Assembly: GCF_010501075.1 (NCBI RefSeq)
Contig: NZ_QVMN01000012.1
Location: 1 to 64,000 of the forward strand
Source: Dysgonomonas sp. 25
GTDB lineage: Bacteria > Bacteroidota > Bacteroidia > Bacteroidales > Dysgonomonadaceae
Direction: 5' to 3'
Length of the DNA: 64,000 bases
This document shows, one piece after another, positions 9,005-52,401 of the stretch. Below the pieces are notes generated by a model. That model did not search any database, was not told the origin of the DNA, and saw nothing but the letters and a program-made list of their open reading frames with translations. Each line of letters begins with the position of its first letter. Position 1 is the first letter of the stretch. A program made the position numbers and the translations under genes.

Positions 9005-9180
9005 CATATTATTTTCGTAACTATACGCTATACAGCTAAAAACTTGCTTAACAGCCAGTAGCTTAGGATATAGAAATACGTTTCGCCTCCAACTTAAAAG
9101 AGTAATCAAACGTATCATTTTTTTGCCACGCTGTTTTTCGAGCATTACCTATTGGTTATCAGACCGATACTATAAGAAAA

Positions 9181-9385
9181 ACTTAACAAAACAGCATGTG
9201 CTTTATAAAAATAACAGTTGTCAAGTTATGTCAAAAACCTACTTCGCTGATAATCAATCAAAATTTAGTTAAAACTTGACACTCTTGACATATTTGACGC
9301 GACACAGTGTTTTTTTCTTGTCATTTTTTTATTACTTAACCACAGAGGACACGAAGTTTTTACACAGAGGTCACAAAGCAAAGAA
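9181..9385. repeat. FISUMP-cassette 3' flank, copy A, with iterated TTGAC boxes
   Basis: This stretch of about 205 bp is nearly the same as 49875-50076, including CTTTATAAAAATGACAGTTG-type sequence, ACCTACTTC, TTTAGTTAAAACTTGAC and the tail TTAACCACAGAGGACACGAA. It contains three TTGAC boxes exactly 9 bp apart (starting at 9276, 9285, 9294) and, 45 bp to the left, two GTCAA boxes 10 bp apart (9220, 9230), which read as TTGAC on the other strand. Homology probably extends more weakly left to about 9119. The CCACAGAGGACAC tail resembles a dispersed repeat known from many bacterial genomes. Confidence 0.8.
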
Positions 9386-9454
9386 CACAGGGAAACAGTC
9401 CTCGCGGACTACTTCCCTGTATAGATAATTTATTTGATAACCGCTAACTGATTA

Positions 9455-11478
9455 TTAGTCTTTCTTGCACCTCACACTCTCAAAGGAGTAACGGGCATTT
9501 GTAATCCTGTTCATTTGCGCATTGGCAGAACTGATGTACCGATGCCACACATTAGTAGCACCGACGCCGCTGGCTGACCAAAAGTTCGCGAACCCCCCAT
9601 AATTACCGACCACACCGCCACTAGCGTGACCCACAGACATAGCGCTAAAGCCCGGTCTCATGGTGGTGTCATTGATGATGTTTGATGCACCGTTGGAGGC
9701 TATTGATGAGGTAGGTGCCGGGCAAACATCTTTCATACCCTGGCCGTGAGTACTACCCCGGTTTGCTGCTTGCCCAACAGTGATAGTGCCGTTCGCATCG
9801 GGGATAGCGGCGTATTGGCTGGTATGGGTGTTTATTTCCTGCTCCAGTTGTGTCCATTCGTAATCGGACGGCAGATGCCAACCGTTCGGGCAAATACCTT
9901 GTCGACGAGCAGTCTGCGGGTCGGTAGCAGGAGCTATCTCACCATCGCTATATGGTTTTTGTCCGTTTGCATAGGCTGCGTCGTTTGCCCCGTTATCAAA
10001 TGTACTTCCTTTGCTGTTAGTTGCAGCCGCCCAATTGTAAAGGCGTCCAAGTCGTGGATTGTTATTGTAGAGGGTGGCGGAGGTGCCGTTGCCACTTATG
10101 TTGGGGTATGTCCATAACGGGTTCTTGTAATTGTCGACCGAAGCAGACGGCGAAGCTGGTAAGTTAACCGAAACGTTGACGTCTACGCCGGTTCTCGCTC
10201 CCGTAGCAAAGCTGGTGGCAGCCAGATTGTTGAGCATCCAGCGGTTGCGTCCGTCGAGGCTACCGGCATCAGTGCCAAAGTCACCCGAAAGAAAAATATT
10301 GCCGCTCTGGTCTTTATGTGCCTGTACACCATTGGGCAGGGTGGTAGGGGTGGCATCACCTCCAAGAGTGCCGCCATTGGGCAGAGCTTGTATAGCTGTC
10401 AATTGTGCAGCACTGAAGCCGGCTCGTTCAGCCCATTGTAGCATGGTGAGGTCGTTGTCGGTAGTGGTGCCACAGTTGAGAACAGATACGGTTATATCCT
10501 CGAAGCGTTTGTTTGTTTCGGTATCCGAAAAGGTTATATTGGCTACATCATAACGATTGCCTGTTCCGACATTATATTGGACGTTTTGCGTACTGTTAGT
10601 ACCGTTTTTCAGATCTGTTCCGCCTGTAGTCGGGCTGGTGTTTGCCAATCCCGGAGTACCTGTTATCGTTGTTGTCCATGCAGCATTACCTTGTACATTG
10701 AGGCTTCCGCTGGTAGGGGTGGTATAGATAATCTGACTGTTAGTGAAGAATTATTTACCTTCAACGCATAATTCGTCTGGTTGAGGGTAATCGTCTTCGT
10801 TTGCCCGCACTCGGTATAAGTGAAGATCAGGCCGGTTTGCTTGCTTGCCCACGGCGAAGCCGGGTTGATAGTCATTGCATCAGGCAGCAAAGTCATGTCG
10901 GTAGGAGAAGCCGTCAAAGTAGTTGGTGCTAACGGTGTCCCCGTAAAATCAATAGCAGTCAATCCACCCGAAGCCGCCGAAGCCCATGTCGGAACAAGCC
11001 CTCCATTCCATGTTATTTTAAGATTTTGTGCGGTGAGCGGGCGGGCATCGTGCCCGCTGGGCAAGTCAAAGTAGTCCTGATTGAAATTCAATCCGGCAGG
11101 AGTATTGTCACCTATCTTATTCCATTCGCTACCCGTCCACACATACAGACCTTTGCCGCTCATGGTACATTTATCACTGTGGTACACGATAAGCCCCGTA
11201 TGATTGGCATCTTCAGTCGCTTTGTCGTAGTGGGTGCCGCTTTGGGTATAGTTAGAGCCACTGATACCGTCAAACATAGGAAATAGCTTATCCGTGTCAG
11301 TGAGTTTTACGCGAGGCATAGCCAATCCTTTGGAGGTAGTCGTCCCTTGCGTAAGGTCTAACAACGCACCATCAACCGGTGGCTGATTACTTCCAATAGT
11401 TACCTGCGCTTGCAGGGCGATTGTTGTTGTTAAGAAGGCTAATATCAAGATAGCCTGTGTCAAGATTTTCTATTTCAT
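9455..11478 (-). pseudogene. FISUMP-domain gene broken by a stop at codon 3 and a frameshift
   Basis: Two abutting reading frames together make one FISUMP protein. The 5' half (11478-10735) has the shared signal peptide and N-terminal domain (QVTIGSNQ, GALLDLTQ, GLYVWTGSEW, LNQTNYALKV). The 3' half (about 10733-9455) resumes with QIIYTTPTSGSLNVQGN and continues to GICPNGWHLPSDYEWTQL and RCKKD. The frame is lost once between about 10733 and 10752, and the two halves align end to end with the intact gene at 816-2741. The ATG at 11478 reads ATG-AAA-TAG, whereas the sister gene at 51735 reads MKRTILTQAILILAFL; an in-frame TTG at 11463 could rescue initiation. With two independent lesions I call it a pseudogene. 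A sequencing error could explain one lesion but hardly both. Confidence 0.8.
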
Positions 11479-12149
11479 AATAAAAAATAATTAGTTAATA
11501 TGATAATGAGATAATATAATAATGTGGTAATATGCTAATGTGATAATGCCGGATAGTACGATAGTGAAGATGTGCTTTTCTATTAGCTCATCAACACATT
11601 GACACATTAAGACATTAGTTTTGTAAGCCATTAGCTGATAGCTGTTAGTTTTATTGTCATGCTGAGCGAAAGCGAAGCATCTCGTCTCGTTACTGCGTAG
11701 GGGCAGACCTGTGTGTTTGCCCGATATATCGATTTGCAGGCGCACACATACATGTATATTCTTTTTAATTGCCTCCACTTTTAAGTGGAGGTCTCGAAAG
11801 GTTGGTTCAAAAATGGCTTTAGCCAAATATCTTTTGACTAAAGTCATCTCCTGAAAGATGCAATCATATCCACGCCTTAAAAGGCGTGGCAACATTAGAC
11901 TATTAGCTTTGTAGGGGGCAATAAACATTGCCCCGTATATGTCGGATATTACGGGCGAATATTTATTGGCTCGACTACGCTTCGCCGAACGATGTTTCGC
12001 CCCTACATGGATTTTGTTGTTGACTGTTGACTGATAACTGTTGACTGAATAGTGCTGCTCACTGTTGACTGAAAAATCCCGCTTCTCCTCACGGAGAAGA
12101 CGGGACAAAATGGGGGTTCTTCCCCTGACATTAACACAAGCAATTTGGC

Positions 12150-12240
12150 ACCCCCTCCCTGCCTCCCCCATTAGGGGAGGAGATAGGAAAAGGGTATATA
12201 TTTTTACTCCCCCTCTGTTGGAGGGGGACGGGGGGAGGTG
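12150..12240. repeat. Pair of GC-rich palindromic repeats, cassette A
   Basis: Two imperfect palindromes (cores CCTCCCCCATTAGGGGAGG and CCCCCTCTGTTGGAGGGGG) separated by an AT-rich spacer. The same pair with the same spacer order recurs at 52080-52169. Confidence 0.75.
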
Positions 12241-12302
12241 AATATTTTTTGAAAAAACTACCCTGAAAATTTGGTGGCCTAAGAAATAATCGCTAAATTT
12301 TC

Positions 12303-12323
12303 GTGTGTGTGTGTGTGTGTGTG
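12303..12323. repeat. (GT)n microsatellite, about 10.5 units
   Basis: A pure GT run directly after TTTC. The equivalent site in cassette B (52231-52256) has 13 units. Dinucleotide runs of this length slip easily during replication. The flank to the right is shared by the two cassettes. Confidence 0.9.
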
Positions 12324-12587
12324 CACGTAGATAACAGAATATATCATATTAGAATACAATATATTAACTGAAAAAATGGTCTTATTATATCTGTTTTTTA
12401 GCACGATATTTGTGTTGTATGATACTGCAAAGAAAGTACTTTTTATTGACAAATACACCATTTGAAAGAAAGAAAATAGTCAATCGTCACAATCAAAAGC
12501 CGGAAATTTATTATCTCAACCGATAGCTTTTTCCCTCTTATTCAACACTTATACCTGACATACAACTATTCATAATCAAAAAAAGAC

Positions 12588-12595
12588 TATATTTG
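12588..12595 (+). promoter_or_regulatory. rsfS promoter, -7 box
   Basis: TATATTTG (TAnnTTTG) lies 38 bp before the rsfS ATG, downstream of the cassette's 5' flank. Confidence 0.5.
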
Positions 12596-12633
12596 TAGGC
12601 TTAATTTAATAATATCGGAACAAAATATACTGA

Positions 12634-12993
12634 ATGGACAACGCTAAAATCATTGTAAACAACGTCGTGGCAGCTTGCCAGGAGAAAAAAGCCCGTAACA
12701 TTGTAATCGTAGACATGACAGAGATGATAGGAACCATCTGTCAATATTTCGTAATATGCGAAGGACGCAGCCCTACACAAGTATCGGCAATAGGTGAGGA
12801 AGTTATCGATTCACTCAAAAAGAACATGAAAGAACGCCCTATCGCAAGCGATGGTGTAGTGGAAGGACGTTGGGCAGGAATAGATTATGGTACGGTTATT
12901 GTTCATATATTTTTACCCGAATTGCGCGAGTTTTATGACATCGAACATTTGTGGGCTGATGCGCAGTTGGAAACGATTCCCGATATCGACTGA
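12634..12993 (+). CDS. rsfS: Ribosome silencing factor RsfS (Iojap)
   Basis: 119 aa, the usual length. It binds ribosomal protein L14 (uL14) and blocks joining of the subunits when nutrients are short. The family fold is visible in IVIVDMTEM, the conserved YFVICEGRSPTQVSAI, and the C-terminal GRWAGIDYGTVIVHIFLPE...YDIEHLWADA. It stands upstream of ftsH (72-bp gap) and cdsA in the same direction, a common Bacteroidetes neighbourhood. Confidence 0.95.
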   Translation: MDNAKIIVNNVVAACQEKKARNIVIVDMTEMIGTICQYFVICEGRSPTQVSAIGEEVIDSLKKNMKERPIASDGVVEGRWAGIDYGTVIVHIFLPELREFYDIEHLWADAQLETIPDID

Positions 12994-13064
12994 CAACTTT
13001 TCATCTGAAAGTTTGTTCATTTAGTAGAATTATTTTGTCGAATTTTAATTTTTCCAGTTAACAT

Positions 13065-15104
13065 ATGGATAACTACAACAAAGAAGAAGGTCAGAAAAAG
13101 CCACGAATACCAACCCCCCAGAAACCGAAAAGCTCCTTTAATCTCAACTGGTTATTCCTGTTAATCTTTGCCGGAATAATCGGAGTTTATTTCTTTTCGC
13201 AGAGTGCATTCTCGAAAGAAGTTGCCTGGTCGGATTTTCAGGGGTATGTCAAGAAAGACTATATCAACAAGATTGTTGTTGACGGAAAATCGCGTACCCT
13301 GCGCGCCTACGTGCGTAGCGAATCAATAAACGAGGTATTCAAAGACGAAGCTAAATCCGAAAACCTGCCAAAAAATCCTTTTATCTCCGTTAAGATTCCT
13401 TCGGCCGATAAATTTTCGGACTTCTACGACCAGATAAAGAAAGATCACAACTACAATATAGACGTCAGCTACGAAGAGAATGTCAGCATTTTCGACTTTC
13501 TCATCGGTGCACTGCCATTCCTGCTGCTTATCGGGCTGTGGGTATTTATGATGCGCCGTATGTCCGGCGGAGGAGCCGGTGGTGGCGGCGGAGTATTCAG
13601 CGTAGGAAAATCCAAAGCACAATTATACGACAAAGCGTCCGATCTGCGTGTGACATTCAAGGATGTTGCCGGATTGTCGGAAGCAAAAGAAGAAATAGAA
13701 GAGATAGTAGAATTTCTCAAAAACCCTTCGAGATATACCGAAATCGGGGGTAAAATACCGAAAGGCGCCTTGCTTGTAGGCCCTCCGGGAACAGGTAAAA
13801 CGCTTTTGGCAAAAGCGGTTGCAGGCGAAGCCAATGTACCGTTTTTCTCGATGTCGGGTTCCGACTTTGTAGAGATGTTTGTCGGCGTTGGAGCTTCGCG
13901 TGTGCGCGACCTCTTCAAGCAGGCTAAGGAAAAATCGCCTTGTATCATCTTCATCGACGAGATAGACGCCATCGGCCGTGCCCGTGGCAAGAATCCGAAC
14001 TTCGGCTCGAACGACGAACGCGAGAATACATTGAACCAGCTCCTGACCGAGATGGACGGCTTCGGTACCAATAGCGGTATCATCATCCTCGCGGCAACTA
14101 ACCGTGCCGATATTCTGGACAAAGCACTCCTGCGTGCGGGACGCTTCGACCGCCAGATAAATGTCGATTTACCTGACCTCAATGACAGAAAAGCGATATT
14201 CAAAGTACACCTTCGTCCTGTGAAAATAGACGACAGCGTAGATGTCGATTTCCTTGCCCGCCAGACGCCGGGATTCTCGGGAGCTGACATTGCCAATGTG
14301 TGTAACGAAGCGGCTTTGATTGCTGCCCGTAAAGGAAAGAAAATAGTACAAAAAGAAGACTTCCTGAATGCTGTAGACCGCATCATCGGGGGGTTGGAAA
14401 AGAAAAATAAGGTTACAACACGCGACGAGCGCCGCACGATTGCTATTCACGAGGCGGGACACGCTACGTTGAGCTGGTTCCTCGAGCATGCCAATCCGTT
14501 GGTGAAAGTTACGATTGTTCCCCGCGGAAAAGCATTGGGAGCAGCATGGTATCTGCCGGAAGAAAGGCAAATCACCACCAAAGAGCAGATGCTGGACGAA
14601 ATGTGTGCCTTGCTCGGAGGACGCGCCGCTGAAGAGGTCTTTATCGGACAAATATCTTCGGGTGCAGTCAACGACCTCGAACGTGTAACGAAGCAGGCTT
14701 ACGCGATGATTTCCTATATGGGGATGAGCGACAAGCTGCCAAATATCAGCTACTACGATTCGGCCGATAATTACGGCTTCACAAAGCCATACAGCGACGA
14801 TACGGCCCTGCTTATCGACCAGGAGGTGCAGGCGATGATTAGCGAACAGTACGAGCGTGCTAAGCAGTTGCTTCGCCAACATTCGGACGGACATCATGCC
14901 TTGGCTGACAAACTGATGACCGAGGAAGTTATCTTTGCCGACGACCTGAAAAAGATTTTCGGTTTACGTCCGTGGGTATCCCGTTCGGATGAGATTATGA
15001 AAGAAAACGAAGAAATCGTGAAAGAGGTTGAAGAAGAGAAAGCCAAAGGCGAAGATGCGCCGGGCATTCTCGCACAGCCGGGACAATCGGAAGAGATAGA
15101 ATAA
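13065..15104 (+). CDS. ftsH: ATP-dependent zinc metalloprotease FtsH
   Basis: 679 aa inner-membrane AAA+ protease that removes damaged membrane proteins and regulators. Two membrane segments (about 28-46 and 143-163) bracket a periplasmic domain. The AAA module has Walker A GPPGTGKT (239-246), Walker B FIDEID and the second region of homology ending in RAGRFDR. The peptidase zinc motif HEAGH is at 462-466. A Gly-rich stretch ([11 protein letters not shown]) follows the second membrane helix. The Glu/Lys-rich C-terminal tail is typical of Bacteroidetes FtsH. The cdsA start follows within 21 bp. Confidence 0.97.
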
Positions 15105-15125
15105 TAATATAACAGTCATTATATT

Positions 15126-15977
15126 TTGAAGAAACTGCCAAATATTGTCGTCCGCATCCTTGCCGGAATCGTATTTGTAGGATTGTTGCTTGCCGGAATC
15201 CTGATTAATGAATTCACTTTTGCTGCTATATTCGCCCTGCTCACAGGGTTGGCTCTGTACGAATTTTATGGGTTGATAGAAAAGGCCGCCAATGTCAAAG
15301 TATCGAAATGGCTGAATATCATCGGGGGGCTTCTTTTATTTGGCGGAGTGTTTTGGTATAGCAATTCGGTAACTTGCTTCAGACCGGATTTGTTTTTCTA
15401 CCTTACACCTTATGCCATTTTCTTATTAGTCCTCTTCGTAAGCGAGTTGTATCGGAAGCATGCCAATCCGTTGCAATCGCTCGCCTATTCCTTCTTAGGG
15501 CAACTTTATATTGCTCTACCTTTTGCGTTGACTAATAAGTTGGTGCTGACTGCCTCTTTCTACACCAGTTACAACTATATCTTCCTTTTAGCTATTTTAG
15601 TTATTATCTGGGTCAACGATTCGTTCGCTTACCTCACGGGTATGACTTTCGGTAAACATCGCCTGTTCGAGCGCATATCGCCAAAAAAATCGTGGGAAGG
15701 ATTCTTTGGAGGGTTAGCTTTCGCCATAGGAGCATCCTTGGTGCTGGCATATTTTTATCCCGAGTTGTCTACTCCTAAATGGATAGGCTTTGCAATTGTA
15801 ACGGTTGTATCCGGCACATTCGGCGACTTGGTAGAATCGCTTTTCAAACGCACATTGGGTGTCAAAGATTCGGGTAACATGATTCCGGGGCATGGCGGTA
15901 TCCTCGACCGCTTCGACAGCACCATTCTTGCCATTCCGGCTATTGTAATATATCTGGAGGTGATAAAGATTTTTTAA
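15126..15977 (+). CDS. cdsA: Phosphatidate cytidylyltransferase
   Basis: 283 aa, polytopic inner-membrane enzyme that makes CDP-diacylglycerol from CTP and phosphatidic acid. The C-terminal family signature is complete: FGDLVESLFKR, then KDSGNMIPGHGGILDRFDS. The predicted start is TTG (MKKLPNIVVRI), with no in-frame ATG nearer the ftsH stop. It lies 21 bp after ftsH and is probably co-transcribed. It ends 70 bp from the convergent YitT-type gene. Confidence 0.94.
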   Translation: MKKLPNIVVRILAGIVFVGLLLAGILINEFTFAAIFALLTGLALYEFYGLIEKAANVKVSKWLNIIGGLLLFGGVFWYSNSVTCFRPDLFFYLTPYAIFLLVLFVSELYRKHANPLQSLAYSFLGQLYIALPFALTNKLVLTASFYTSYNYIFLLAILVIIWVNDSFAYLTGMTFGKHRLFERISPKKSWEGFFGGLAFAIGASLVLAYFYPELSTPKWIGFAIVTVVSGTFGDLVESLFKRTLGVKDSGNMIPGHGGILDRFDSTILAIPAIVIYLEVIKIF

Positions 15978-16047
15978 ATATCCGCTTTCTTCGTCCTCGC
16001 TCTTAAAAATGAGACTATTCCTTTTTCTCAGAAAATGCAAAACTTCT

Positions 16048-16914
16048 CTAACTCCTTATCTTATCGAACCCTTCGCCATAAACCCCACGCACGGTCGTTT
16101 GCGAGATAAAGGCTTTTTCATCGATTTTTTGTATCAGGCGGAACATCTGTATCGATTCGGAACGCTTAGCTAATACAACCACCACCTTTATCGGTTTACC
16201 CGTATAAGCTCCCGTACCGTCCAACAGGGTACAACCTCTATGCAGTTCAAAATTAATAGCTTTCGCTATTGTCTCATACTTATCAGAGAAGATAAAGAAC
16301 TGAACCGATTGACGGAATCCATTGATAACCATATCAATGGTGTATGTCATCACACCCATTACGATAAGGGCGATAATAATCTTCTGATAATCATGGAAAA
16401 CAAAATAGGAGCAACAAATAATAGTAAAGTCGCAAAGTAACATTCCGCGACCGAAAGAGATATTCTTATATTTATTGATGATGGCAACAACAATATCCGT
16501 ACCGCCCGTACTCCCGTTTGCGCTAAATACAAGCGCTATGCCGGCTCCACACATCATCCCCCCTACTACACCCGAAAGTGTCGGTTCAGAAGCCATCAGA
16601 GGCTCTTTAAAGATTAATTGAGCAATCGTAATGAGGGCCGTAAGAACTACTACCCCGTATATTGTTTTGGCGAGGAATTTTATGCCTAATATCTTCAAGG
16701 CAACCAAAAGCAAGGCGCAGTTAGTGAAAAAATATACATATTGCAGTGGTAATCCGGTACTGTATTCAATCAAGAGGGCGATACCGGTCAGTCCCCCTGT
16801 TACGATTCCACCGGGCTTGATAAAGCCTATCAATCCAACTGCGTATAAGACAAGACCGACAGTTATTAACAGATAGTCTTTCCAATAAAAATCTTTTAAG
16901 TATCTGCGAGGCAT
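16048..16914 (-). CDS. YitT/DUF2179-family membrane protein
   Basis: 288 aa from the ATG at 16914 (MPRRYLKDFYWKDYLLI). I rejected the longer frame to 16998 because a TATCTTTG -7 box lies inside it at 16940-16947. Five or so membrane helices include the conserved KPGGIVTGGLTGIALL and FSANGSTGGTDIV. The C-terminal DUF2179 domain (GCTLLDGTGAYTGKPIKVVV) is cytosolic. The family is widespread and its transport substrate, if any, is unknown. Confidence 0.9.
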   Translation of the reverse strand: MPRRYLKDFYWKDYLLITVGLVLYAVGLIGFIKPGGIVTGGLTGIALLIEYSTGLPLQYVYFFTNCALLLVALKILGIKFLAKTIYGVVVLTALITIAQLIFKEPLMASEPTLSGVVGGMMCGAGIALVFSANGSTGGTDIVVAIINKYKNISFGRGMLLCDFTIICCSYFVFHDYQKIIIALIVMGVMTYTIDMVINGFRQSVQFFIFSDKYETIAKAINFELHRGCTLLDGTGAYTGKPIKVVVVLAKRSESIQMFRLIQKIDEKAFISQTTVRGVYGEGFDKIRS

Positions 16915-16939
16915 ATGGTTAGATATTATAATTTCGACG

Positions 16940-16947
16940 CAAAGATA
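16940..16947 (-). promoter_or_regulatory. Promoter -7 box of the YitT-type gene
   Basis: TATCTTTG on the minus strand (TAnnTTTG) lies 26 bp upstream of the ATG at 16914. Its position decides between the two possible starts. Confidence 0.55.
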
Positions 16948-17001
16948 AGTAGGATTTTCCATTTCATCTCTCAAAAAAGAGAGAAATAAGAACAACAATA
17001 T

Positions 17002-17961
17002 TTATTTTTTATCCGAAATCAAACCATCCCTCATCAAGTCTTGTATCATCTTGTGCGTAAAGAGTTTGCTACCTCTGTTATTCATATGCATCGAGTTGTA
17101 GAAGTAGTCTTTATGATAACATATCGAATCATTGGAATAATCAAAAAACGGGATCGCATATTTGTCCGAAAATTTTTGATAGATAGCAATAACGGAGTCC
17201 TTATTTGATATAAATTTCTGTCCCTCGATATACTCGGGTGTATAAACAAAAATCAACGGAATATCTTCTTTTTTGGAATCGATAATAAAATCTTCAAATA
17301 ACCTTACAGAAGTCGTATCGATATAGGCTTTGTACGACTTCATATTGCCTTGTGCTCTCTCTAATGCGCCATCCCATTCTTTTTCGTATCCTTTATATCC
17401 TTTCTCGCGGAAACGGGCATCAGGATTAACATAATAATTCAGTCCCGAACGGATAGCATCGAAACGCCCGATATAGCGGTATAAAGGGATAATGAAATCG
17501 GGACAAGTAAAACCTTCGTATGTCAATGTTGTCTCTGCTACATCTTTGTTCCATAGCATATAAGGCAGGAATTGCCCCAAATTATATAAATCAGGACGTT
17601 TCTCAAGCGTAAAGACATCCAAGGCATAAATAATTGCTTCCGGCTTCGGGTTATGTCGCAGATACTCACGATGTCTTAAACTTTGCAGATAGAAGTTATG
17701 AGCATTCAGACCAAAATTATAGGCCGGGTGCCCGGTTTCTTTTTCTATCATCATAGGGTCAATATGGATCCATGCACGCGAAGAACCATAGATAAGATAA
17801 TCGGAATTGACCTGACCAGTATAAATATCTGTCCATGTTTCTATTTCACCATCTGAATAAACAGAATGAGCCAAGCCGTTTGAAATAAACCAATCGGCAG
17901 GATAAGCCAATACGATTATCGGGCAAACAAATATCAATAGTTTTTTTAGTAGCTTCTTCAT
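17002..17961 (-). CDS. SGNH-like protein paired with the MBOAT acyltransferase (paralogue 1)
   Basis: 319 aa. An N-terminal membrane anchor (KLLIFVCPIIVLAYPADWF) precedes a periplasmic domain. LIYGSSRAW places a GDS-like Ser at residue 60, and the C-terminal YNSMHMNNRGSKLF has the His expected near the SGNH catalytic end. The layout resembles DltD/AlgJ/AlgX-type partners of MBOAT enzymes, which act in O-acylation of surface polymers. The gene starts 6 bp after the MBOAT gene and is a clear paralogue of 19411-20397 (same Ser position, same anchor). The substrate is unknown. Confidence 0.8.
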   Translation of the reverse strand: MKKLLKKLLIFVCPIIVLAYPADWFISNGLAHSVYSDGEIETWTDIYTGQVNSDYLIYGSSRAWIHIDPMMIEKETGHPAYNFGLNAHNFYLQSLRHREYLRHNPKPEAIIYALDVFTLEKRPDLYNLGQFLPYMLWNKDVAETTLTYEGFTCPDFIIPLYRYIGRFDAIRSGLNYYVNPDARFREKGYKGYEKEWDGALERAQGNMKSYKAYIDTTSVRLFEDFIIDSKKEDIPLIFVYTPEYIEGQKFISNKDSVIAIYQKFSDKYAIPFFDYSNDSICYHKDYFYNSMHMNNRGSKLFTHKMIQDLMRDGLISDKK

Positions 17962-17967
17962 TCCTGC

Positions 17968-19404
17968 TTAGAATTGGAAATAGATGAATTGTTGCTCGCC
18001 TCCGGCAAATAAAATAATAAATACGATAATCATATAATAGAATGCCCACCGGAAGAAGCGGCTACGCTTCGCTCCGAAGAATTCCAAACCATACTTATTT
18101 TCTCTACCTAACCATTCGACAATAAACATCAGCAAAAACATACCGATAGTTATCAAAGTTTTGGTATCATAATGAGGTGAGGTAAGTAATTCTTTAGGTA
18201 TACTTGCAATGTATTCGAAAGCATGCGTCATGTTATCGGCACGGAAGAAAATCCAGGCAAAAGCAGCCAACGCAAATGTTATGCCCACATGCAGAATATC
18301 CTTGAACGAAGGTAATAACTTACCTTGCGCTACCACATCCAGATTCTTCCGGTTCTGCTTCATAATAATAGACGGCATAATAAACAAGGCATTCAGACCG
18401 CCCCAGGCGATAAATGTCCAGTTAGCGCCGTGCCAGAAGCCACTGACAAGGAATATTATAAACGTGTTGCGTATCGTCTTTAACATCGTACCTCTGCTCC
18501 CTCCGAGTGGGAAATAGAGATAGTCGCGAAACCACGAAGACAAGGATATATGCCAACGCCGCCAGAACTCGGCAATATCGCGCGAGAAATACGGAAATTT
18601 GAAGTTCTGTAATAATTCAAAGCCAAGCATCCGCGCGGTTCCCAGCGCTATATCCGAATAACCCGAGAAGTCGCCGTATATCTGTATCGTAAAGAAAATA
18701 GCCCCCAACACCAATGTACTCCCCGAGTGTTCGCCTCCATTAAAAGCCATATTGGCATATTCGGCACAGTTATCGGCTACAACAACTTTTTTGAACAAGC
18801 CCCAAAGGATTTGCTTCAAGCCATCTACCATCTTGGCGTAACGGAATGTACGTTCCTGTTCTATCTGAGGGAGTAGGTGTGTTGCCCGTTCGATAGGCCC
18901 AGCAACCAATAAGGGAAAGAAGCTGACGAACAAAGAATAGTCTACCCAGTTGCGGGTAGGCTTTATTCTATCGTTATAGATATCGAGCACATACGAGAGC
19001 CCGTGGAATGTATAGAACGATATACCAACCGGCAAAATAATACTTAGTGTGTGGATGCTCGATGATAAACCGAATAGCTGCAAAAATTCCTGAAACTCGT
19101 GTATAAAGAAATTGAAATACTTAAAGAAGCCCAGAAAACAAATATTCACAATGACTGCAATAAACATCCAAGTCTTTCGTCCGCTTTTTGTCGTTGCCGT
19201 ACTGACCCTTAGCCCTCCGTAATAGCAGAGGATAGTGGAAATAGCCAGCAGAAAAAGAAAACGCCAATCCCAGCAGCCATAGAAGAAATAACTGGCAACA
19301 AGCAAGAAAACATTCTGTGCCTTTTTGTTATTCTTCAATACCAGCCAATAGATAAAAAAAACTATCGGAAAGAATATGGCAAAGTTGATTGAGTTAAAAA
19401 GCAT
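17968..19404 (-). CDS. MBOAT-family O-acyltransferase (AlgI/DltB-like)
   Basis: 478 aa polytopic inner-membrane protein. Family features include FIYWLVLK at the N-terminus, PVGISFYTFHGLSYVLDIY, FGGYSDIA-like GDFSGYSDIALG, AEFWRRWHISLSSWFRDYLY and the catalytic His at residue 325 in SGFWHGANW. These enzymes pass acyl groups across the membrane to a surface sugar or polymer. It sits between two SGNH-like paralogues with 6-bp gaps on each side, all in one transcript headed by leuS. Confidence 0.93.
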   Translation of the reverse strand: MLFNSINFAIFFPIVFFIYWLVLKNNKKAQNVFLLVASYFFYGCWDWRFLFLLAISTILCYYGGLRVSTATTKSGRKTWMFIAVIVNICFLGFFKYFNFFIHEFQEFLQLFGLSSSIHTLSIILPVGISFYTFHGLSYVLDIYNDRIKPTRNWVDYSLFVSFFPLLVAGPIERATHLLPQIEQERTFRYAKMVDGLKQILWGLFKKVVVADNCAEYANMAFNGGEHSGSTLVLGAIFFTIQIYGDFSGYSDIALGTARMLGFELLQNFKFPYFSRDIAEFWRRWHISLSSWFRDYLYFPLGGSRGTMLKTIRNTFIIFLVSGFWHGANWTFIAWGGLNALFIMPSIIMKQNRKNLDVVAQGKLLPSFKDILHVGITFALAAFAWIFFRADNMTHAFEYIASIPKELLTSPHYDTKTLITIGMFLLMFIVEWLGRENKYGLEFFGAKRSRFFRWAFYYMIIVFIILFAGGEQQFIYFQF

Positions 19405-19410
19405 ATTTAT

Positions 19411-20397: not shown

Positions 20398-20422
20398 GTT
20401 TATCTATCCTTGCGGGGGGGCA

Positions 20423-23227: not shown

Positions 23228-23266
23228 AAAATTGAAACTGAAAGTATGTTACAATTAATCAAGCCA

Positions 23267-23274
23267 CAAAGATA
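23267..23274 (-). promoter_or_regulatory. leuS promoter, -7 box
   Basis: TATCTTTG on the minus strand, 40 bp upstream of the leuS ATG. The -33 region is not clear. Confidence 0.5.
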
Positions 23275-23310
23275 GCTATTTGTTTGGAAGTAGGACGGAT
23301 ACAAAAAGGA

Positions 23311-23335: not shown

Positions 23336-23369
23336 ATAGTATGATTACAAAATTTTATGCTCTTTAAAC

Positions 23370-39680: not shown

Positions 39681-39705
39681 ATCCTGTAAATCTTACTATA
39701 TATGG

Positions 39706-40023: not shown

Positions 40024-40055
40024 AGTGTATATTATTAGCTTTCTTTTTTTATTCG

Positions 40056-40562: not shown

Positions 40563-40596
40563 ATCTATGATAATATAGTCTCTATATCGTTATTTC

Positions 40597-41178: not shown

Positions 41179-41203
41179 TTTAGTTATCTGTTTATTTTAT
41201 TAA

Positions 41204-42319: not shown

Positions 42320-42361
42320 ATATCGTTTATCTTAATATATTAATCAATAGTATTCTCTTTG

Positions 42362-43990: not shown

Positions 43991-44012
43991 TGACCTATCT
44001 GAATATCAACGA

Positions 44013-44618: not shown

Positions 44619-44959
44619 TCCAATGCTCCTTTCTTCCATGCATATGCGAGTCCTAACCCGAGGAATAATAAGAATACTAATACACTGATAAGTCCGGCCG
44701 TCCCCAGATCACGCACAACGGTCGCCCAAGGAAACAGGAATACGGCTTCGACGTCGAACATCAGATACAGGATAGCATATAAGTAATATCCTACCTTGAA
44801 TTGCATCCATGATGTTCCGTGTGTCGGAATACCACATTCGTATGCTTCTCCTTTTTGCGCATTAAATGATTTGGGTGATACGAGTAGTGCAATACCTAAT
44901 CCGGCACACACTAAAAACATTCCGGTGAAGAGTACTGTTATAAAAAGTGGAGAACCCAT
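44609..44959 (-). CDS. nuoA: NADH-quinone oxidoreductase subunit A
   Basis: 116 aa with three helices. NuoA signature: [21 protein letters not shown] and [12 protein letters not shown]. First gene of the nuo operon. The 203-bp upstream gap holds no good TAnnTTTG match that I can place. Confidence 0.95.
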
Positions 44960-45162
44960 AAATATCTCTTAATGAATTATTCTACTAATATATTTTTCGC
45001 GTACAGATTTCTGAATTATAGCAAATTGTAAGGGCTGAATGCAGTTTTCTGCAATTGGCCACCCTCGAATTGGCACAAAATTACAGTTTTATTTCATTCT
45101 ACCAAAAGATTGTAATGTAAATAATTGTAAAAAATGACAAGTCGAGTTTACAAAATAGCCTG

Positions 45163-46101
45163 TTACGGTTTTTCCTCGGTCTCCTTTACAATGTATATAG
45201 GCCTGCGCTTGGTTTCGAGATATGTTTTGGACAGGTATTGCCCTAATATCCCCAGACAGAAAAGCTGTATCCCTCCTATAAAGAAGATGATACAAATGGT
45301 CGAAGGATAACCCTGCACATCGTCGCCCCAGATAAGCGTTTTGGCTATGATAATACTAATCATGACGAATGCGATAATGCAAAAGAGAATCCCGAAAAGC
45401 GAAGCAATATGCAGCGGTCGCGTCGAGAAAGCCAATATCCCTTCGAACGAATAGAGCAATAATCCCCAGAAAGACCATTTTGTTTCTCCGGCTACACGTT
45501 CCACATTTTCGTAAGCTATCCATTTGGTATTGAAGCCCACCCATCCGAATATCCCTTTCGAGAAGCGGTTGTATTCGCTCAATTCGAGAATGGCATCGAC
45601 CATCTGGCGCTTCATGAAGCGGAAGTCGCGCGCTCCGTCTACCACCTCGGTATCGGATATTTTGTTCATCAGCTTATAGAAGCGTTTGGCAAAGAACGAG
45701 CGTATCGGCGGCTCGCCTTTACGGTCGACACGGCGGGTTGCAACGCAATCGTATTCGCTGTCGGTCGTCAGTATTTCATACATCTCGCTTATCAACGAAG
45801 GCGGGTCTTGCAGGTCGGCATCGATGAGGGCTACATAATCGCCAGTCGCCGTTTTCAGTCCGGCATAGATAGCCGCTTCTTTGCCGAAGTTGCGCGAAAA
45901 AGAAACATAGCGCACGCGCTCGTCCTGCTTGTGCAGCCCTTTGATGACGGATATAGTCTTGTCTTTCGAACCGTCATTGACAAATATAAACTCGAACGAT
46001 TGTCCGGGCATACCGCTTGTGACTTTCTGTAGTTCCTCGTAGAGAAAAGGCAATGCCTGCTCTTCGTTATAACAGGGAATGATTATCGATATTTTGTCCA
46101 T
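45163..46101 (-). CDS. GT2 glycosyltransferase, DPM1/GtrB-like
   Basis: 312 aa from the ATG at 46101 (MDKISIIIPCYNEEQAL); an ATG at 46116 is possible but lies only 10 bp from the -7 box. The catalytic GT-A domain has YVALIDADLQDPP (DxD) and FRFMKRQMVDAI. Two C-terminal membrane helices follow (LFGILFCIIAFVMISIII, IIFFIGGIQLFCLGILG). Such proteins make polyprenyl-phosphate sugars, possible donors for transferases such as the one at 27671-29212 (inference). Confidence 0.9.
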   Translation of the reverse strand: MDKISIIIPCYNEEQALPFLYEELQKVTSGMPGQSFEFIFVNDGSKDKTISVIKGLHKQDERVRYVSFSRNFGKEAAIYAGLKTATGDYVALIDADLQDPPSLISEMYEILTTDSEYDCVATRRVDRKGEPPIRSFFAKRFYKLMNKISDTEVVDGARDFRFMKRQMVDAILELSEYNRFSKGIFGWVGFNTKWIAYENVERVAGETKWSFWGLLLYSFEGILAFSTRPLHIASLFGILFCIIAFVMISIIIAKTLIWGDDVQGYPSTICIIFFIGGIQLFCLGILGQYLSKTYLETKRRPIYIVKETEEKP

Positions 46102-46126
46102 GTTGTTGCAACTCATTAGATAATTA

Positions 46127-46134
46127 CAAATTTA
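46127..46134 (-). promoter_or_regulatory. Promoter -7 box of the GT2 gene
   Basis: TAAATTTG on the minus strand (TAnnTTTG), 26 bp upstream of the ATG at 46101, which favours that start. Confidence 0.5.
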
Positions 46135-46389
46135 AGTGCTTTTTATTGTATCGCAAACATTCGGGCAAAATAGTTTCGTTATTCACTAATCCTTCAACTG
46201 GATAATACCTATAATCACCCAGAAATTCCTCTCCGTCTGTGTACAGTTTTTTCGGGGAGATAAACCCGCAAACATAGTTATTAAGATACAAAGCATTTAA
46301 CAATGTTAAAATAAGTAAAAATATATTCCTCGACGATTTTTTTTTAACCTACAACATTACTATTGTTAAGTTTTGTATTTAATTTTGTA

Positions 46390-46422
46390 TTTGATTGCAA
46401 TCATAAAAAAAGACTACAATTA
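46390..46422 (+). promoter_or_regulatory. Candidate promoter of the AT-rich lipoprotein gene
   Basis: TTTG (46390-46393), a 21-bp spacer, then TACAATTA (46415-46422), a loose match to the Bacteroidetes -33/-7 pair. Confidence 0.35.
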
Positions 46423-46443
46423 CACTAACTAAAAAACATTTGT

Positions 46444-47286
46444 ATGAAAAAGAAAAACATTTTATTTTTCGCCCTTGCTATTATGACCATTTTTTCATTG
46501 TTTATTTATGCATGTTCTTCGGAAAATGACGGCACAAAAGATGATCCAACTAAACAAAAAGCTCTTAAGTATGAAGAAAAATATTTAGAAGTAGGAATGG
46601 CACATAATGATGCTATGGATGCCATAATAAAGGATGTCAAGATTCAAATGAATTTGCAAAAAACAACTACTACAAGAGAGTTGACAAGAGAAGATCTTAT
46701 TAATATTTTCGATGAATCACATAGAAAAGTTTACTCTTCTTTAGAATCTGTCTCAAAAATTACGAACGCTAAATTGTCCAGCGAACAAATTCAAAAATTG
46801 ACATTATTTACAGAGATCAATACTAAATCTGCAACTGAATATAAATGTTCCGAAGATTTTGAATCTTTAACTCAAGAACTATACAACATGTGTGAAGAAT
46901 CTGAGAATCAAGGGATTTTACCTGAAGATTTTAATGCTAAGATTGGAAAATTAAATATTAAAGCTGTTCAAATTTTATCAGGAGAGGAAATTGATTTTTT
47001 CTTTATCTCAACAAGTGTAGCTAAAGCATCTTATGAGTATTGGTATTATAATTTTGATGAATGGGTTAAAACTATTGCTGGCAGTAACGCTCTTAATAAT
47101 AACCAAAAATCATGGTTCAGTTGGAAGGGTGTTGTGAAAAATGATGCTGCAGGAGCAATTGGAGGTGCATTAGCTGGTGCAGTCGTTGCAGGTGCAGGTG
47201 CAGCACCGGGCGCTCTTGGTGGAGCTATTGCTGGTTCTGCAGGCTCTGCTGCTTTACAAGTCCTTGATCATTTCTTTCCCGGATAA
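46444..47286 (+). CDS. Lipoprotein with a glycine-zipper C-terminal tail, unknown function
   Basis: 280 aa. The lipoprotein signal ends at FIYAC (Cys24) followed by SSENDG, acidic enough for surface export. The middle (about 40-225) is charged and mostly helical, with single Cys residues near CSED and MCEES. The last ~50 residues change sharply to a Gly/Ala tail with repeated GxxxG spacing (DAAGAIGGALAG, then GALGGAIAGSAGSAAL), ending LDHFFPG. Tails of this type occur in class IIb-like bacteriocins and membrane-inserting peptides (family knowledge); a toxin role is only inference. The codons are much AT-richer than those of neighbours, which suggests recent transfer. The next gene, 10 bp downstream, is a small membrane protein. 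Confidence 0.75.
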   Translation: MKKKNILFFALAIMTIFSLFIYACSSENDGTKDDPTKQKALKYEEKYLEVGMAHNDAMDAIIKDVKIQMNLQKTTTTRELTREDLINIFDESHRKVYSSLESVSKITNAKLSSEQIQKLTLFTEINTKSATEYKCSEDFESLTQELYNMCEESENQGILPEDFNAKIGKLNIKAVQILSGEEIDFFFISTSVAKASYEYWYYNFDEWVKTIAGSNALNNNQKSWFSWKGVVKNDAAGAIGGALAGAVVAGAGAAPGALGGAIAGSAGSAALQVLDHFFPG

Positions 47287-47296
47287 TGAATAATTT

Positions 47297-47509
47297 ATGA
47301 AAAACAATAATATTCTCATATTAGCTACTATTTGCTTTGCTGTAACTATCTTCGTTAATTACAGTCTACTATATAAATTTTTATTCGAAGATCAGAATCT
47401 CTTGAAATTCTGTATAGCAATTGTATTAGAAGCTATAGTTTCGCTTTGTTCAGCATATTTGGTTTGTAAACTAATTGCTACTATAAAAAGTAAATGGCAT
47501 AAAGGATAG
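47297..47509 (+). CDS. Small two-helix membrane protein
   Basis: 70 aa. Two hydrophobic helices (ILILATICFAVTIFVNYSLLY and FCIAIVLEAIVSLCSAYLVC) and a basic C-terminus (KSKWHKG). It starts 10 bp after the glycine-zipper lipoprotein, shares its AT-rich composition and ends before a terminator. Size and topology fit a bacteriocin-type immunity protein or a chaperone for its neighbour (inference). No family recognised. Confidence 0.65.
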   Translation: MKNNNILILATICFAVTIFVNYSLLYKFLFEDQNLLKFCIAIVLEAIVSLCSAYLVCKLIATIKSKWHKG

Positions 47510-47528
47510 TTCATATATCCATAACAAA

Positions 47529-47565
47529 AAAGAGCCAAAGATAGATTTGAAGTCTTTGGCTCTTT
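47529..47565. terminator. Bidirectional terminator between the AT-rich pair and groEL
   Basis: A 13-bp stem (AAAGAGCCAAAGA / TCTTTGGCTCTTT) with an 11-nt loop, preceded by AAAA and followed by a T-rich end. It serves the convergent genes ending at 47509 (+) and 47587 (-). Confidence 0.85.
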
Positions 47566-47586
47566 GCATTATATATCGGGGTAGGA

Positions 47587-49347
<1,761 letters not shown>

Positions 49348-49350
49348 TCC

Positions 49351-49620
49351 TTAAATTACTGCCAAAATATCGGACTGACGCATAATGAGATATGCCTCCC
49401 CTTCCCATTCGACTTCGGTGCCGGCATACTTGCCATATAATACCTGATCCTTCGGTTTAACGACCATCTCTTCGTCTTTTGTTCCGTTACCTACAGCAAC
49501 CACTTCACCTTTAAGCGGTTTTTCTTTAGCTGTGTCGGGAATGATGATACCCGCAGCAGTTTTTGCTTCGACAGCGGCAGGCTTCACCAATACTCTGTCT
49601 GCTAATGGTTTAATGTTCAT
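49351..49620 (-). CDS. groES: Co-chaperonin GroES (10 kDa)
   Basis: 89 aa. [11 protein letters not shown] at the N-terminus, the mobile loop [21 protein letters not shown] and the end [12 protein letters not shown] are diagnostic. It caps GroEL. First gene of the operon. Confidence 0.97.
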
Positions 49621-49679
49621 TGTTCGTTGTTTTTAGTTTATTTATTATATTAGATTTTGTTATTGTCAATTTTGGTTCT

Positions 49680-49695
49680 TGCGAAATGTATGCCA
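49680..49695 (-). promoter_or_regulatory. Candidate groES promoter: -24/-12-like or -7-like
   Basis: On the minus strand TGGCATACATTTCGCA keeps the GG-N10-GC spacing of a sigma-54 -24/-12 element (consensus end TTGCA, here TCGCA), about 60 bp before the groES ATG. Inside it TACATTTC is also one mismatch from the housekeeping TAnnTTTG box, so the sigma factor cannot be decided from sequence. No CIRCE element was seen. Confidence 0.35.
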
Positions 49696-49874
49696 AAGGT
49701 AATTGAATATGCCAGACTGACAAAAATTCAGTTTTATTATTCGGCAAACCAACTGTTAAAATGTCAAAATGGCGGATTCGGGAGAAAAAGCAGAAATAAA
49801 CTTTCGTGTCACTTTTTTGTCACCTTGTTTTTGGATGTTTATTCGCTTATTATCAGATTTATAATACTCAAAAA

Positions 49875-50076
49875 ACTTGACAAAACAGGATGCGCTTTAT
49901 AAAAATGACAGTTGTCAAGTTACGTCAAAAACCTACTTCACTGATAATCAACCGAAATTTAGTTAAAACTTGACACTCTTGACAGATTTGACGCGATACA
50001 GCGTTTTTTTCTTGTCATTTTTTATTACTTAACCACAGAGGACACGAAGTTTTTACACAGAGGCCACAAAGTAAAA
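49875..50076. repeat. FISUMP-cassette 3' flank, copy B, with iterated TTGAC boxes
   Basis: Copy of 9181-9385. TTGAC boxes start at 49970, 49979 and 49988 (9-bp period) and GTCAA boxes at 49914 and 49924 (10-bp period), so the box spacing is conserved even where single bases differ. The tail has the same CCACAGAGGACACGAAG repeat. Weaker similarity continues left to about 49813. Confidence 0.8.
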
Positions 50077-50352
50077 GAACGGTTCTGTCATGCTGAGCCT
50101 TTGGCGAAGCATCCCGACCCAACTATGAACAGCGCAAAGCGCAACGAGACCCCTCGCATCCGCTCGGGATGACAAAAAACGTAGGGAAACAGTCCCACCC
50201 CCTCCAACCTCCCCCACAAGGGGAGGCTTATAAGTATAGATAAAGATAGGCTGATATCTTTCCGGCAATAAACCAAAAAGTCCCTCTCCAAATGGAGAGG
50301 GATATAGGGAGAGGTGATTCCCCCTCTTGTGGAGGGGGTGGGGGGAGGTGAA

Positions 50353-51735
50353 TTAGTCGTCTTTCTTGCAGCGGACACTAAGGAGGTATCCGGACTGATA
50401 GCCTCCAACGCACCCCTTATCCACAGTATTGGCAAAATACCGAACTACCATCCGGCTAGACGACCAAATTATAGCAGCACCACCGTAGTAGCCAAAAGCA
50501 CCGGACTCGCCATTGCCCGCAAGAAACAGTTCGAACCCTCCCTGCGCCGCCGATTTGCTGGTACCATTGGAGGCGAGGCCATTGATGGTGGAGCCCGTGG
50601 CTTTCATAGCCCTACCATGGGAAGTACCACGCCAGACAGGGTAAATGTAACCGGAATAAGGCAATAGCGCTCCTCCTATATCGGGCGTTGAACTGAATTT
50701 ACTGGTATTAATAATTATACCGTTCTCCAGATCCGTCCATTGCCGGTCACTGGGCAAGTGCCAGCCAGCAGGACAGATGCCCTGTATCCGATTAGCTTCA
50801 TCCAAACCTACGTTCGCTAGACCACCCCCCGGAGGATCAGGTGTCTGACCGGGTCCTGTACCCATATTGATGGCGGCAGGCCAGTTGTATAGTACGCCCA
50901 GCGTTGCACGATTAGCCGCTTGATTGTTTGGATAGTAATAGCGAGGACTTGTCGTGCTACCAACAGCCTCGCCTCCATACGGATTTTGGGCAATAGCCGT
51001 TCCGTCGGGCATTTTGATAGCCCGCAGGTTTTCAGCCATCCATACCCCGTCTTCAAAAGTTAAGCTGCCAGCTACCGTTTCGGTGCTGGTAACGATTGCA
51101 CTGCCATCCTGCGCGCAACTGATATCACGCGTAACATTAAAGGTATTATCATGTTCGGTATAACCCACATAGAAGCGGGTATAATGATAGGTTTGCGGGG
51201 CGTCGTTCGGGCGGTTATCGGTAAACTGCCCGATATATCCCAGCGGATAGCTTGCCGGATTCTTGCCCAAAGTAGCCCACATAGGGTGGGCGGTATTGCT
51301 CGGGTCGAGGTGTGTGAAACCTTTGAGCTGGGTAGATTGCAATATACGGGTTTCTCCCATTTCGGGATAGGCGCCTAATACCTGCCACTCCGTGCCGTCC
51401 CATACATGCAACCCCGGGCAGAAGCGTGTAGCGAGGGAAACCTCATCTTTGCCAATGTTGTATACAACCAGTCCCGCATGGTCGGCAGCATTGAGCGTGC
51501 CGCTTGGCAGCCCCATTGTTTCGGCGAGGTCTGTCTTGGTTTTGATGTCTTTCAGTTCTACGCGGGGTAGTCCCAGCCCTTTGGTCGACATCCCCTGATT
51601 GTCCATTTTCAGGTCGAGCAGTGCCCCGGCATTGGGTTTCTCGCCGCTGCCGATTGTTACCTGCCCATGCAAGTCGATTGTTGTTGTTAAGAAGGCTAAT
51701 ATCAAGATAGCCTGTGTCAAGATTGTTCTTTTCAT
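50353..51735 (-). CDS. Secreted FISUMP-domain protein, intact (cassette B)
   Basis: 460 aa. Signal peptide MKRTILTQAILILAFLTTTI, cleaved near LHGQ. The shared N-terminal domain (QVTIGSGEKPNAGALLDLK, LHVWDGTEW) spans about 25-135. The FISUMP domain (about 230-460) runs from FEDGVWMAENLRAIKMPDG through GICPAGWHLPSDRQWTDL to VRCKKDD. The middle differs from the 641-aa paralogue: shorter, without the two beta-rich inserts. The first ~20 residues are almost identical to those of the broken gene in cassette A, while the rest has diverged. Probably exported and surface- or matrix-associated; function unknown. Confidence 0.85.
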   Translation of the reverse strand: MKRTILTQAILILAFLTTTIDLHGQVTIGSGEKPNAGALLDLKMDNQGMSTKGLGLPRVELKDIKTKTDLAETMGLPSGTLNAADHAGLVVYNIGKDEVSLATRFCPGLHVWDGTEWQVLGAYPEMGETRILQSTQLKGFTHLDPSNTAHPMWATLGKNPASYPLGYIGQFTDNRPNDAPQTYHYTRFYVGYTEHDNTFNVTRDISCAQDGSAIVTSTETVAGSLTFEDGVWMAENLRAIKMPDGTAIAQNPYGGEAVGSTTSPRYYYPNNQAANRATLGVLYNWPAAINMGTGPGQTPDPPGGGLANVGLDEANRIQGICPAGWHLPSDRQWTDLENGIIINTSKFSSTPDIGGALLPYSGYIYPVWRGTSHGRAMKATGSTINGLASNGTSKSAAQGGFELFLAGNGESGAFGYYGGAAIIWSSSRMVVRYFANTVDKGCVGGYQSGYLLSVRCKKDD

Positions 51736-52401
51736 GTTATAAAAGAATTAACCACCTCCCCCTGTCCCCCCTCCACAAGAGGGGGTAACAGAAAAAGATG
51801 AAGTGAATAAATAGTTGATTTATAGCTTTTAGCCGTTAGCCGATAGCTATTAGCTTTGTCATTGACTACACTTCGTTCCGCCGAACGATGTTTCGCCCCT
51901 ACATGGGTTCTGTTGTTGATAGAAGAGGATGATATACTTCCCCCTTCGGGGGATTGAGGGGGCCTGCTGTTAACTGAAATATTGCCCCTCGCTCCCCCTC
52001 TTGTGGAGGGGGCTGGGGGGAGGTAGGTACGGCTGTCGCAGCCGGAAATACCCCTGACATTAACACAAGCATTCGGGCACCCCCTCCCTACCTCCCCCAC
52101 AAGGGGAGGAGATAGGAAAAGAGTATATATTTTTACTCCCCCTCTGTTGGAGGGGGACGGGGGGAGGTGACTCTTTTTTCTAAAAAAACCTCTAAAACCT
52201 TGGATTAATCCGAAATATTGACTATATTTCGTGTGTGTGTGTGTGTGTGTGTGTGTAAGAATAGTGATATATCATATTAGAATATAATATATTAGCTGAT
52301 AATATAGTTGTAAAATTCCTATCTTTTTGCACAGTATTTGTATTGTGTGACACTACAAAGGAAAGCATTATTAGCGAATAATCAAACTAAAATGTTCGTT
52401 T
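51736..52401. repeat. Repeat-rich 5' flank of FISUMP cassette B
   Basis: 666 bp without a credible gene. GC-rich palindromes lie at 51751-51788, 51939-51966, 51987-52026, 52080-52110 and 52137-52169. AGCCGATAGCTATTAG units lie at 51830-51860. A CGAACGATGTTTCGCCCC element (51880-51905) matches cassette A at 11985-12009. The GT microsatellite and the AT-rich block up to about 52370 also match cassette A. Confidence 0.7.
52231..52256. repeat. (GT)n microsatellite, 13 units
   Basis: A pure GT run after TTTC at the same cassette position as 12303-12323, longer by about five bases. Confidence 0.9.

Follow-up and report, generated by a model that had tools for sequence, protein, structure and literature searches.

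We found that the 64,000-bp window analysed here, positions 1-64000 of contig C3 in the 58-contig, 3.74-Mb genome of a Dysgonomonas sp. (G000), carries two FISUMP loci that appear to belong to one large family of single-gene units scattered over the genome, and that another member of this family, outside the window, is the target of a complete diversity-generating retroelement (DGR). The reading that we favour, with a probability of roughly two in three, is that these units form a family of variable secreted proteins, shuffled in their leaders and coupled to the DGR, in which the units would exchange pieces and the DGR would supply tails. Secretion of the proteins is predicted from the signal peptide, and FISUMP proteins, which occur in Bacteroidota genomes, have to our knowledge no known function. 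A sequence-only reading had described the two loci as FISUMP cassettes whose matching flanks agree in order and orientation; this observation is confirmed and is far larger than two loci, and the accompanying idea that such cassettes are copied or homogenised is partly supported.

Upon comparing positions 9000-12700 with 49600-52500 by BLAST, we obtained four matching blocks that share order and orientation, namely the 3' flanks (9111-9386 and 49805-50080; 85.9% identity, 277 columns), the signal-peptide regions (11390-11493 and 51647-51750; 87.6%, 105 columns), a leader block (11965-12023 and 51861-51919; 86.4%) and the upstream flanks (12122-12435 and 52051-52363; 81.3%, 315 columns). Both genes are on the minus strand, with 9.1 kb and 49.8 kb being their 3' sides, and their middles yield no DNA alignment, which bears out the proposed divergence of gene middles between like flanks. 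Gene 1 (9455-11478, signal-peptide region 11390-11478) is broken: its third codon is an in-frame TAG and the reading frame is interrupted near 10.65-10.75 kb, leaving open reading frames (ORFs) at 9455-10648 and 10663-11463. Gene 2 (50353-51735) is intact and encodes 460 aa, with a signal peptide (region 51647-51735), an N-terminal domain and a C-terminal Fib_succ_major domain (residues 231-456); it belongs to FISUMP by its matches to PF09603 (86.9 bits, cut-off 33.9, E 2.7e-24) and TIGR02145 (50.0 bits, cut-off 41.65, E 5.4e-13).

The flanks, annotated on the minus strand, have similar contents. The 3' flank of cassette 1 (9119-9377) is 86% identical to that of cassette 2 (49813-50070). The upstream flank of cassette 1 (12122-12435) contains a 22-nt motif (12122-12143), GC palindromes (about 12150-12241), a (GT) tract of 10 units (12303-12322), an AT-rich block and a -7-like box within 12421-12435, and that of cassette 2 (52040-52380) contains the motif (52051-52072), GC palindromes (about 52079-52170), a palindromic core, a (GT) tract of 13 units (52231-52256), an AT-rich block, a -7-like box within 52351-52363 and a -33-like box within 52375-52389. 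The palindrome pair had been regarded as a cassette part and is indeed present in both flanks, but it is not cassette-specific, as 3 of the 18 matches to the GC-rich palindrome core in the window fall outside the four FISUMP areas that hold the other 15. Palindrome pieces of this kind also adjoin 3' flanks without a family gene at L118, L120, L127 and L130.

Across the genome, searches with the 3' flank (43 matches; 40 of 80 candidate regions scored), the FISUMP model (61 matches; 66 of 66 candidates scored) and the upstream flank (69 pieces; 40 of 93 candidates scored) were merged into 78 clusters, which 41 of the 69 upstream pieces entered and which were fetched as loci L091-L163. A profile of the N-terminal region detected 69 ORFs in these loci. 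Three of them, at the end of contig C32, duplicate window genes and were removed, which left 66, spread over 14 contigs and comprising 53 with FISUMP tails, 8 with leucine-rich-repeat (LRR) tails and 5 fragments or others. FISUMP- and LRR-tailed genes have a common signal peptide and N-terminal domain, the latter with the pattern QVTIGS..GALLDLK..KGLxLPRV..GLYVWDG..W. The further copies that had been anticipated, with differing genes between like flanks, proved to be many, and 20 of the 66 family genes carry both flanks. In the proposed organisation, each unit would encode a signal peptide, the common N-terminal domain and then either a FISUMP or an LRR C-terminal domain, and most units would be headed by a Bacteroidetes-type promoter of their own and by a leader in which a palindrome and a CA tract are conserved. 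The GltX of G000 has its nearest named isolates in Dysgonomonas, with 78-84% identity for the eight best loci, one of which comes from a metagenome-assembled genome labelled Prevotella. Among the 25 Dysgonomonas genomes, G000 and 24 others used for comparison, 22 contain FISUMP matches. Integron gene cassettes, arrayed at one site with an integrase, do not agree with the position of the units on 14 contigs and the promoters that many of them own; an integrase was not searched for.

The upstream flank is closely tied to the family. It precedes 42 of the 66 family genes, and its 49 copies comprise these 42, six cut by contig ends and one that stands alone. A 100-nt core gave 50 matches, of which five secondary or weak ones were dropped; of the remaining 45, three are cut by contig ends and 42 have a family gene 0.28-1.3 kb downstream of them. 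A whole-genome pattern search with the CA tract and the core returned 36 exact places, 32 of them known before, and added three at contig ends (C1:20, C4:64107 and C9:8) as well as the solitary one, C9:3618, with no family gene within C9:1-7200. At this last place, C9:3450-3690 (L350) has promoter-like boxes, CA tract and core with no family gene behind them. The suspicion that the flanks are generic repeats, equally common away from FISUMP genes, is thus contradicted for the upstream flank, with 42 of 43 uncut copies preceding a family gene, and partly borne out for the 3' flank, with 14 of its 43 scored copies elsewhere.

In gene orientation, the leader consists of a promoter pair with boxes 19-21 bases apart, an imperfect palindrome (TATCA..TGATA in many copies), a CA tract, a palindromic core and a filler repeat of one of several types, after which the gene follows; in most units it is 0.3-1.3 kb long. 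We observed the promoter pair TTG-(18 to 23)-TnnnTTTG in 28 of 41 leaders (4 of the 45 being omitted as near-duplicate or truncated), against 1.75 per mononucleotide-shuffled set, and from this we infer that a Bacteroidetes-type promoter is in use at the leaders. The CA tract has 9-14 units in 36 of the 41 leaders and 3-6 units in five, and with the promoter placed ahead of it, it would be transcribed. Among FISUMP-family ORFs fetched from other species, 5 of 53 have (AG) tracts of 44-250 bp in their upstream regions (L254, L269, L279 and L283; G021, G003, G005 and G011), whereas G000 has CA tracts. The whole upstream flank was not found in the 24 other genomes of the genus, with at most 29 candidates scored per genome; the short pieces found there are mostly the GC-rich palindrome, joined in G013 and G020 by the GT tract. 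Additionally, an exact 20-mer of the leader motif had no match in a wider contig collection from which G000 itself may be excluded.

The 3' flank is only enriched around family genes. It lies behind 24 of the 66, and of its 43 copies 28 adjoin a family gene, 14 lie elsewhere, several of them next to housekeeping genes, and one (C1:84651) is by a FISUMP match cut at a contig end. Short matches to its core occur in other Dysgonomonas, and these matches together with the 14 stray copies led us to reject the 3' flank as a specific cassette end or recombination site. Within the 3' flank of cassette 2, a terminator-like stem with a T run lies at 49990-50005 on the plus strand, antisense to the gene; terminator-like sites in that region number 5, against 3.0 in shuffles.

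Next, we compared the distances between modules in 31 FISUMP units with a leader, out of 39 units with a leader, the LRR-tailed and other ones being omitted. Distances in the leader core are almost uncorrelated with those in the signal peptide (r=0.08) and the N-terminal domain (r=0.04), and the signal peptide follows the N-terminal domain weakly (r=0.14, p=0.03), whereas the N-terminal domain and the middle (0.51) and the middle and the C-terminus (0.48) are correlated. When each module was split into odd and even columns as a control, the correlations were 0.71 for the leader core, 0.62 for the signal peptide, 0.84 for the N-terminal domain, 0.82 for the middle and 0.40 for the C-terminus, and for first and second halves they were 0.42, 0.27, 0.72, 0.64 and 0.37, respectively. 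The decoupling of the signal peptide is the weaker part of this result because the signal peptide is short. Furthermore, near-identical blocks join units that have otherwise diverged. The unit at 68 kb on C3 matches different partners in different parts, on C43 (95.9%, 340 bp), C32 (97.2%, 178 bp) and C56 (97.6%, 581 bp), and window positions 1-1560 are 99.94% identical to C32:346598-348157, after which the C-termini differ. The suggestion that the unit is copied as a whole finds no support, because leader, signal peptide and protein body have almost uncorrelated histories, which agree better with piecewise exchange; from these histories and the shared blocks, the loci seem to trade pieces and not to arise by copying of entire units.

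These results also bear on two other explanations. Plain expansion of a gene family, with the upstream region selected and co-regulated and without recombination between loci, would agree with the promoter boxes, palindrome and CA tract being the best conserved parts and with 42 of 43 uncut leaders preceding family genes, but it leaves unexplained why blocks of 178-581 bp at 96-98% and of 1560 bp at 99.94% identity join otherwise diverged loci, why leader and signal-peptide distances do not follow the body, and why filler repeats of the leader are also common to several units; we consider it unlikely. A non-autonomous mobile element with the gene as its cargo, moving in one piece, could produce like flanks in the same orientation at dispersed sites, a whole flank not found in the other species of the genus and a leader without a gene such as C9:3618. 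Against it, no inverted repeat of at least 14 nt joins the flanks of cassette 1 in a search of up to 400 bp, where the sole short inverted repeat sits inside the 3' flank (TGTCAAG/CTTGACA, 9219-9236 and 9264-9281), no transposase-like ORF was noticed by eye inside the window cassettes, both flanks occur at only 20 of 66 genes and the modules are decoupled; we hold this explanation to be very unlikely.

The assembly itself has to be weighed as a further alternative. Compared parts of the window, 1-5732 and 6119-11856, are base-for-base equal to the end of C32, and 11759-19409 is 99.83% identical to C56:306272-313922, with 13 mismatches. The switch from C32-like to C56-like sequence falls in a 98-bp leader block (11759-11856, minus strand), about 91 bp of which are identical in C3, C32 and C56, and which is present in 11 fetched loci at 92% identity or more, counting C3 and its C32 duplicate. 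With gene names assigned by eye, gltX and gene 1 have rsfS/ftsH as their neighbour in C3 but an MFS-like gene in C32, and in C56 it is gene 2 that adjoins rsfS/ftsH. Such junctions are what two cassettes recombining within a mixed population would leave behind, but they may also come from an assembly chimera. Under the latter explanation, C3 would be a chimera of the C32 and C56 ends at the roughly 91-bp repeat and contig ends would duplicate sequence, consistent with the identities above and with the at least six upstream flanks that contig ends cut; this would account for those contigs only and not for units in contig interiors, and the 13 mismatches suggest two haplotypes and not one locus read twice. 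We regard such a partial artefact as a distinct possibility without holding it probable. In a gltX synteny search, the 8 closest of 80 loci returned have mostly different neighbours; in one of them (L172) about 8 kb separate gltX from rsfS, and the other seven gave nothing decisive on the ancestral junction.

The second component of the favoured reading is the DGR. A search of G000 for reverse transcriptases (RTs) found two, on C5 and C32. At C5:3078-7741 (L104) we observe a complete DGR, consisting of a FISUMP-tailed family gene as target, Avd, a template and the RT. The template (6227-6405) and the variable repeat (4938-5114) differ at 20 of 53 A positions and at 0 of 124 others, or at 20 of 54 and 1 of 125 with the two final template bases counted in. 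About 149 bp separate the end of the template from the RT match downstream of it. The RT matches RVT_1 above the cut-off (67.7 bits), and in NCBIfam it has no DGR RT match, the best being a group II RT below the cut-off; it contains YVDD and IGNLTSQ motifs, which we take to indicate a DGR-type RT. The Avd passes Pfam bAvd (46.9 bits, cut-off 40) and falls below the NCBIfam cut-off (55.3 versus 80). With an RT beside a template, near-exclusive changes at template A and an Avd, the locus has the features of a DGR, and the template-repeat comparison shows that it has rewritten a family member's tail at template adenines alone. The FISUMP tail presumably adopts the C-type-lectin-like fold of DGR targets, as we take from the literature; a PDB sequence search with gene 2 and the C5 target gave no match at E 0.1. 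The second RT (C32:136852-138045) was judged retron-like by eye, and no avd- or template-like neighbour was noticed.

When RT presence was scored at E 1e-30 or better, the C5-type RT was found in 3 of the 25 genomes, which are the three richest in FISUMP matches (61, 58 and 42; next 33); some of the matches in G014 are in short ORFs or at contig edges. G014 has seven DGR RT matches, three of them partial, on its contigs C41, C152, C154, C68, C104, C310 and C108. G018 has two matches to the C5-type RT and a DGR of the same kind with FISUMP targets (C110:97000-106500, L344; C180, L324 and L326). There, the adjacent target is changed at 25 of 70 A and 3 of 135 non-A positions and a target on another contig at 29 of 70 and 4 of 135; for the latter target, the DGR may have acted remotely or the gene may have been copied recently.

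Beyond the C5 pair, we examined, at template AAY codons with a changed residue, whether the third base is retained above the codon-usage expectation (54 FISUMP tails, false discovery rate 0.05). Eight tails carry this footprint, the C5 gene and seven remote ones on C56, C32, C4 (two), C1 (two) and C55, all seven with at least one cassette flank. Among 51 fetched control tails from seven other Dysgonomonas, which are not all the tails of those genomes, one in G011 passes; six of the seven control genomes have no match to the C5-type RT at E 1e-30, the exception being G018. As only the C5 pair is clear in the template DNA search, each of the seven would be an old target, the target of a different template or derived from a target.

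Several results weigh against a DGR-coupled, leader-shuffled family. In a whole-genome DNA search with the template, the C5 pair was the sole clear template-target pair, 46 of the 54 FISUMP tails lack the footprint, and the seven remote tails with it are changed at 24-57 of 124 non-A positions. The pooled third-base ratio of G000 (1.23) is close to that of G021 (1.19) and G011 (1.17), both without this RT, and to the 1.17 of G000 codons outside AAY positions; a pooled footprint over all members was therefore rejected and the per-gene test kept, so that the footprint claim rests on the eight genes. Neither window gene shows a footprint, with third bases retained at 6 of 15 codons in gene 1 (4.8 expected) and 5 of 14 in gene 2 (4.0 expected), or an A-specific change relative to the resident template (gene 1, A 27/53, non-A 53/124, p=0.20; gene 2, A 28/45, non-A 57/117, p=0.086). 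On the side of exchange, the control with first and second halves is weaker than that with odd and even columns, and lowest for the short signal peptide, and the leader core and the C-terminus are correlated (r=0.30, p=0.0015), contrary to full independence of modules. For the leaders, RNAalifold gave no consensus fold, and two hand-drawn helices showed no covariation above shuffles. These results, together with a sole Rfam match on L098/L099 to a miRNA family (E 0.34, far under the gathering score) and folding z-scores of -1.6 and -1.3, lend no support to a structured RNA in the leader, and we set this reading aside.

Under the reading of a leader-shuffled family coupled to a DGR, RecA-type ectopic recombination or gene conversion would exchange pieces, the expression and secretion front end would be homogenised while tails diverge, and the DGR would supply new tail sequences that duplication or recombination would spread, the outcome being a repertoire of variable secreted binding proteins. 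A stronger version, an immune-like repertoire of about 60 recognition proteins in which the DGR hypermutates FISUMP tails, recombination moves promoter, leader and signal peptide between loci and puts LRR in place of FISUMP behind the common N-terminal domain, and the CA-tract leader sets which units are expressed, we put forward only tentatively and hold to be doubtful. The combination of a very large FISUMP family, a resident DGR and FISUMP-or-LRR tails suggests a diversified binding repertoire and offers a testable model, and the shared, reassorting leader provides a handle on how such a repertoire would be expressed.

The window contains further family members at its ends. On the plus strand, an ORF of 265 aa with the N-terminal domain only (2-799), its 5' side cut by the contig start, directly precedes a FISUMP family gene of 641 aa (816-2741), and the same arrangement of an N-domain-only ORF before a full family gene is seen at C32:346935-347396. 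A FISUMP family gene on the minus strand (63617-64000) runs beyond the window end. As the sequence-only reading had stated, the loci at 1-2.9 kb and 63.6 kb are without the flanks in the assembled sequence, the first being cut by the contig start.

Neisseria pil, Mycoplasma vlhA and Borrelia vls are surface-protein families diversified by recombination. The G000 family resembles them in having conserved and variable parts and exchange between copies, and differs from them in that it showed no single expression site and no promoterless archive, since 28 of 41 leaders bear their own recognisable promoter. A full-text literature search found no paper joining DGRs with the name FISUMP or with Dysgonomonas, and the parts of PMC8144416 available to us added nothing on FISUMP. 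As far as the available parts of the sources go, DGRs with Fib_succ_major or DUF1566 targets were reported in a human microbiome survey (PMC4159848), and Fib_succ_major was tied to DGR targets in Bacuni phages (PMC8143477). The C5 locus is similar to these in its RT, Avd, template and C-terminal FISUMP target changed only at template A. Unlike those targets, which the same parts do not describe as members of a large family, the C5 target is one of about 60 relatives, with a common signal peptide and N-terminal domain, a leader at 42 of 66 genes and some LRR tails. In the available parts of further sources, the Treponema denticola DGR has 2-7 targets, remote ones included (PMC4891356), 219 cyanobacterial CLec genes in 21 genomes include remote DGR targets (PMC7517822), Thiohalocapsa has trans DGR targets (PMC10907252), and DGRs with multiple targets were surveyed (PMC3521204, PMC6642488), including templates whose repeat copies number from a dozen to hundreds (PMC6642488). 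Like the Treponema denticola, cyanobacterial and Thiohalocapsa systems, G000 combines a single DGR core with scattered paralogs that have one tail domain in common, whereas most of its members lack a detectable footprint of the resident template, and a shared promoter and leader of separate history and LRR as an alternative tail are not described in those parts. Overall, FISUMP targets and remote DGR targets are already known, and what is new is the combination of a DGR with a leader-shuffled FISUMP-or-LRR family of this size.

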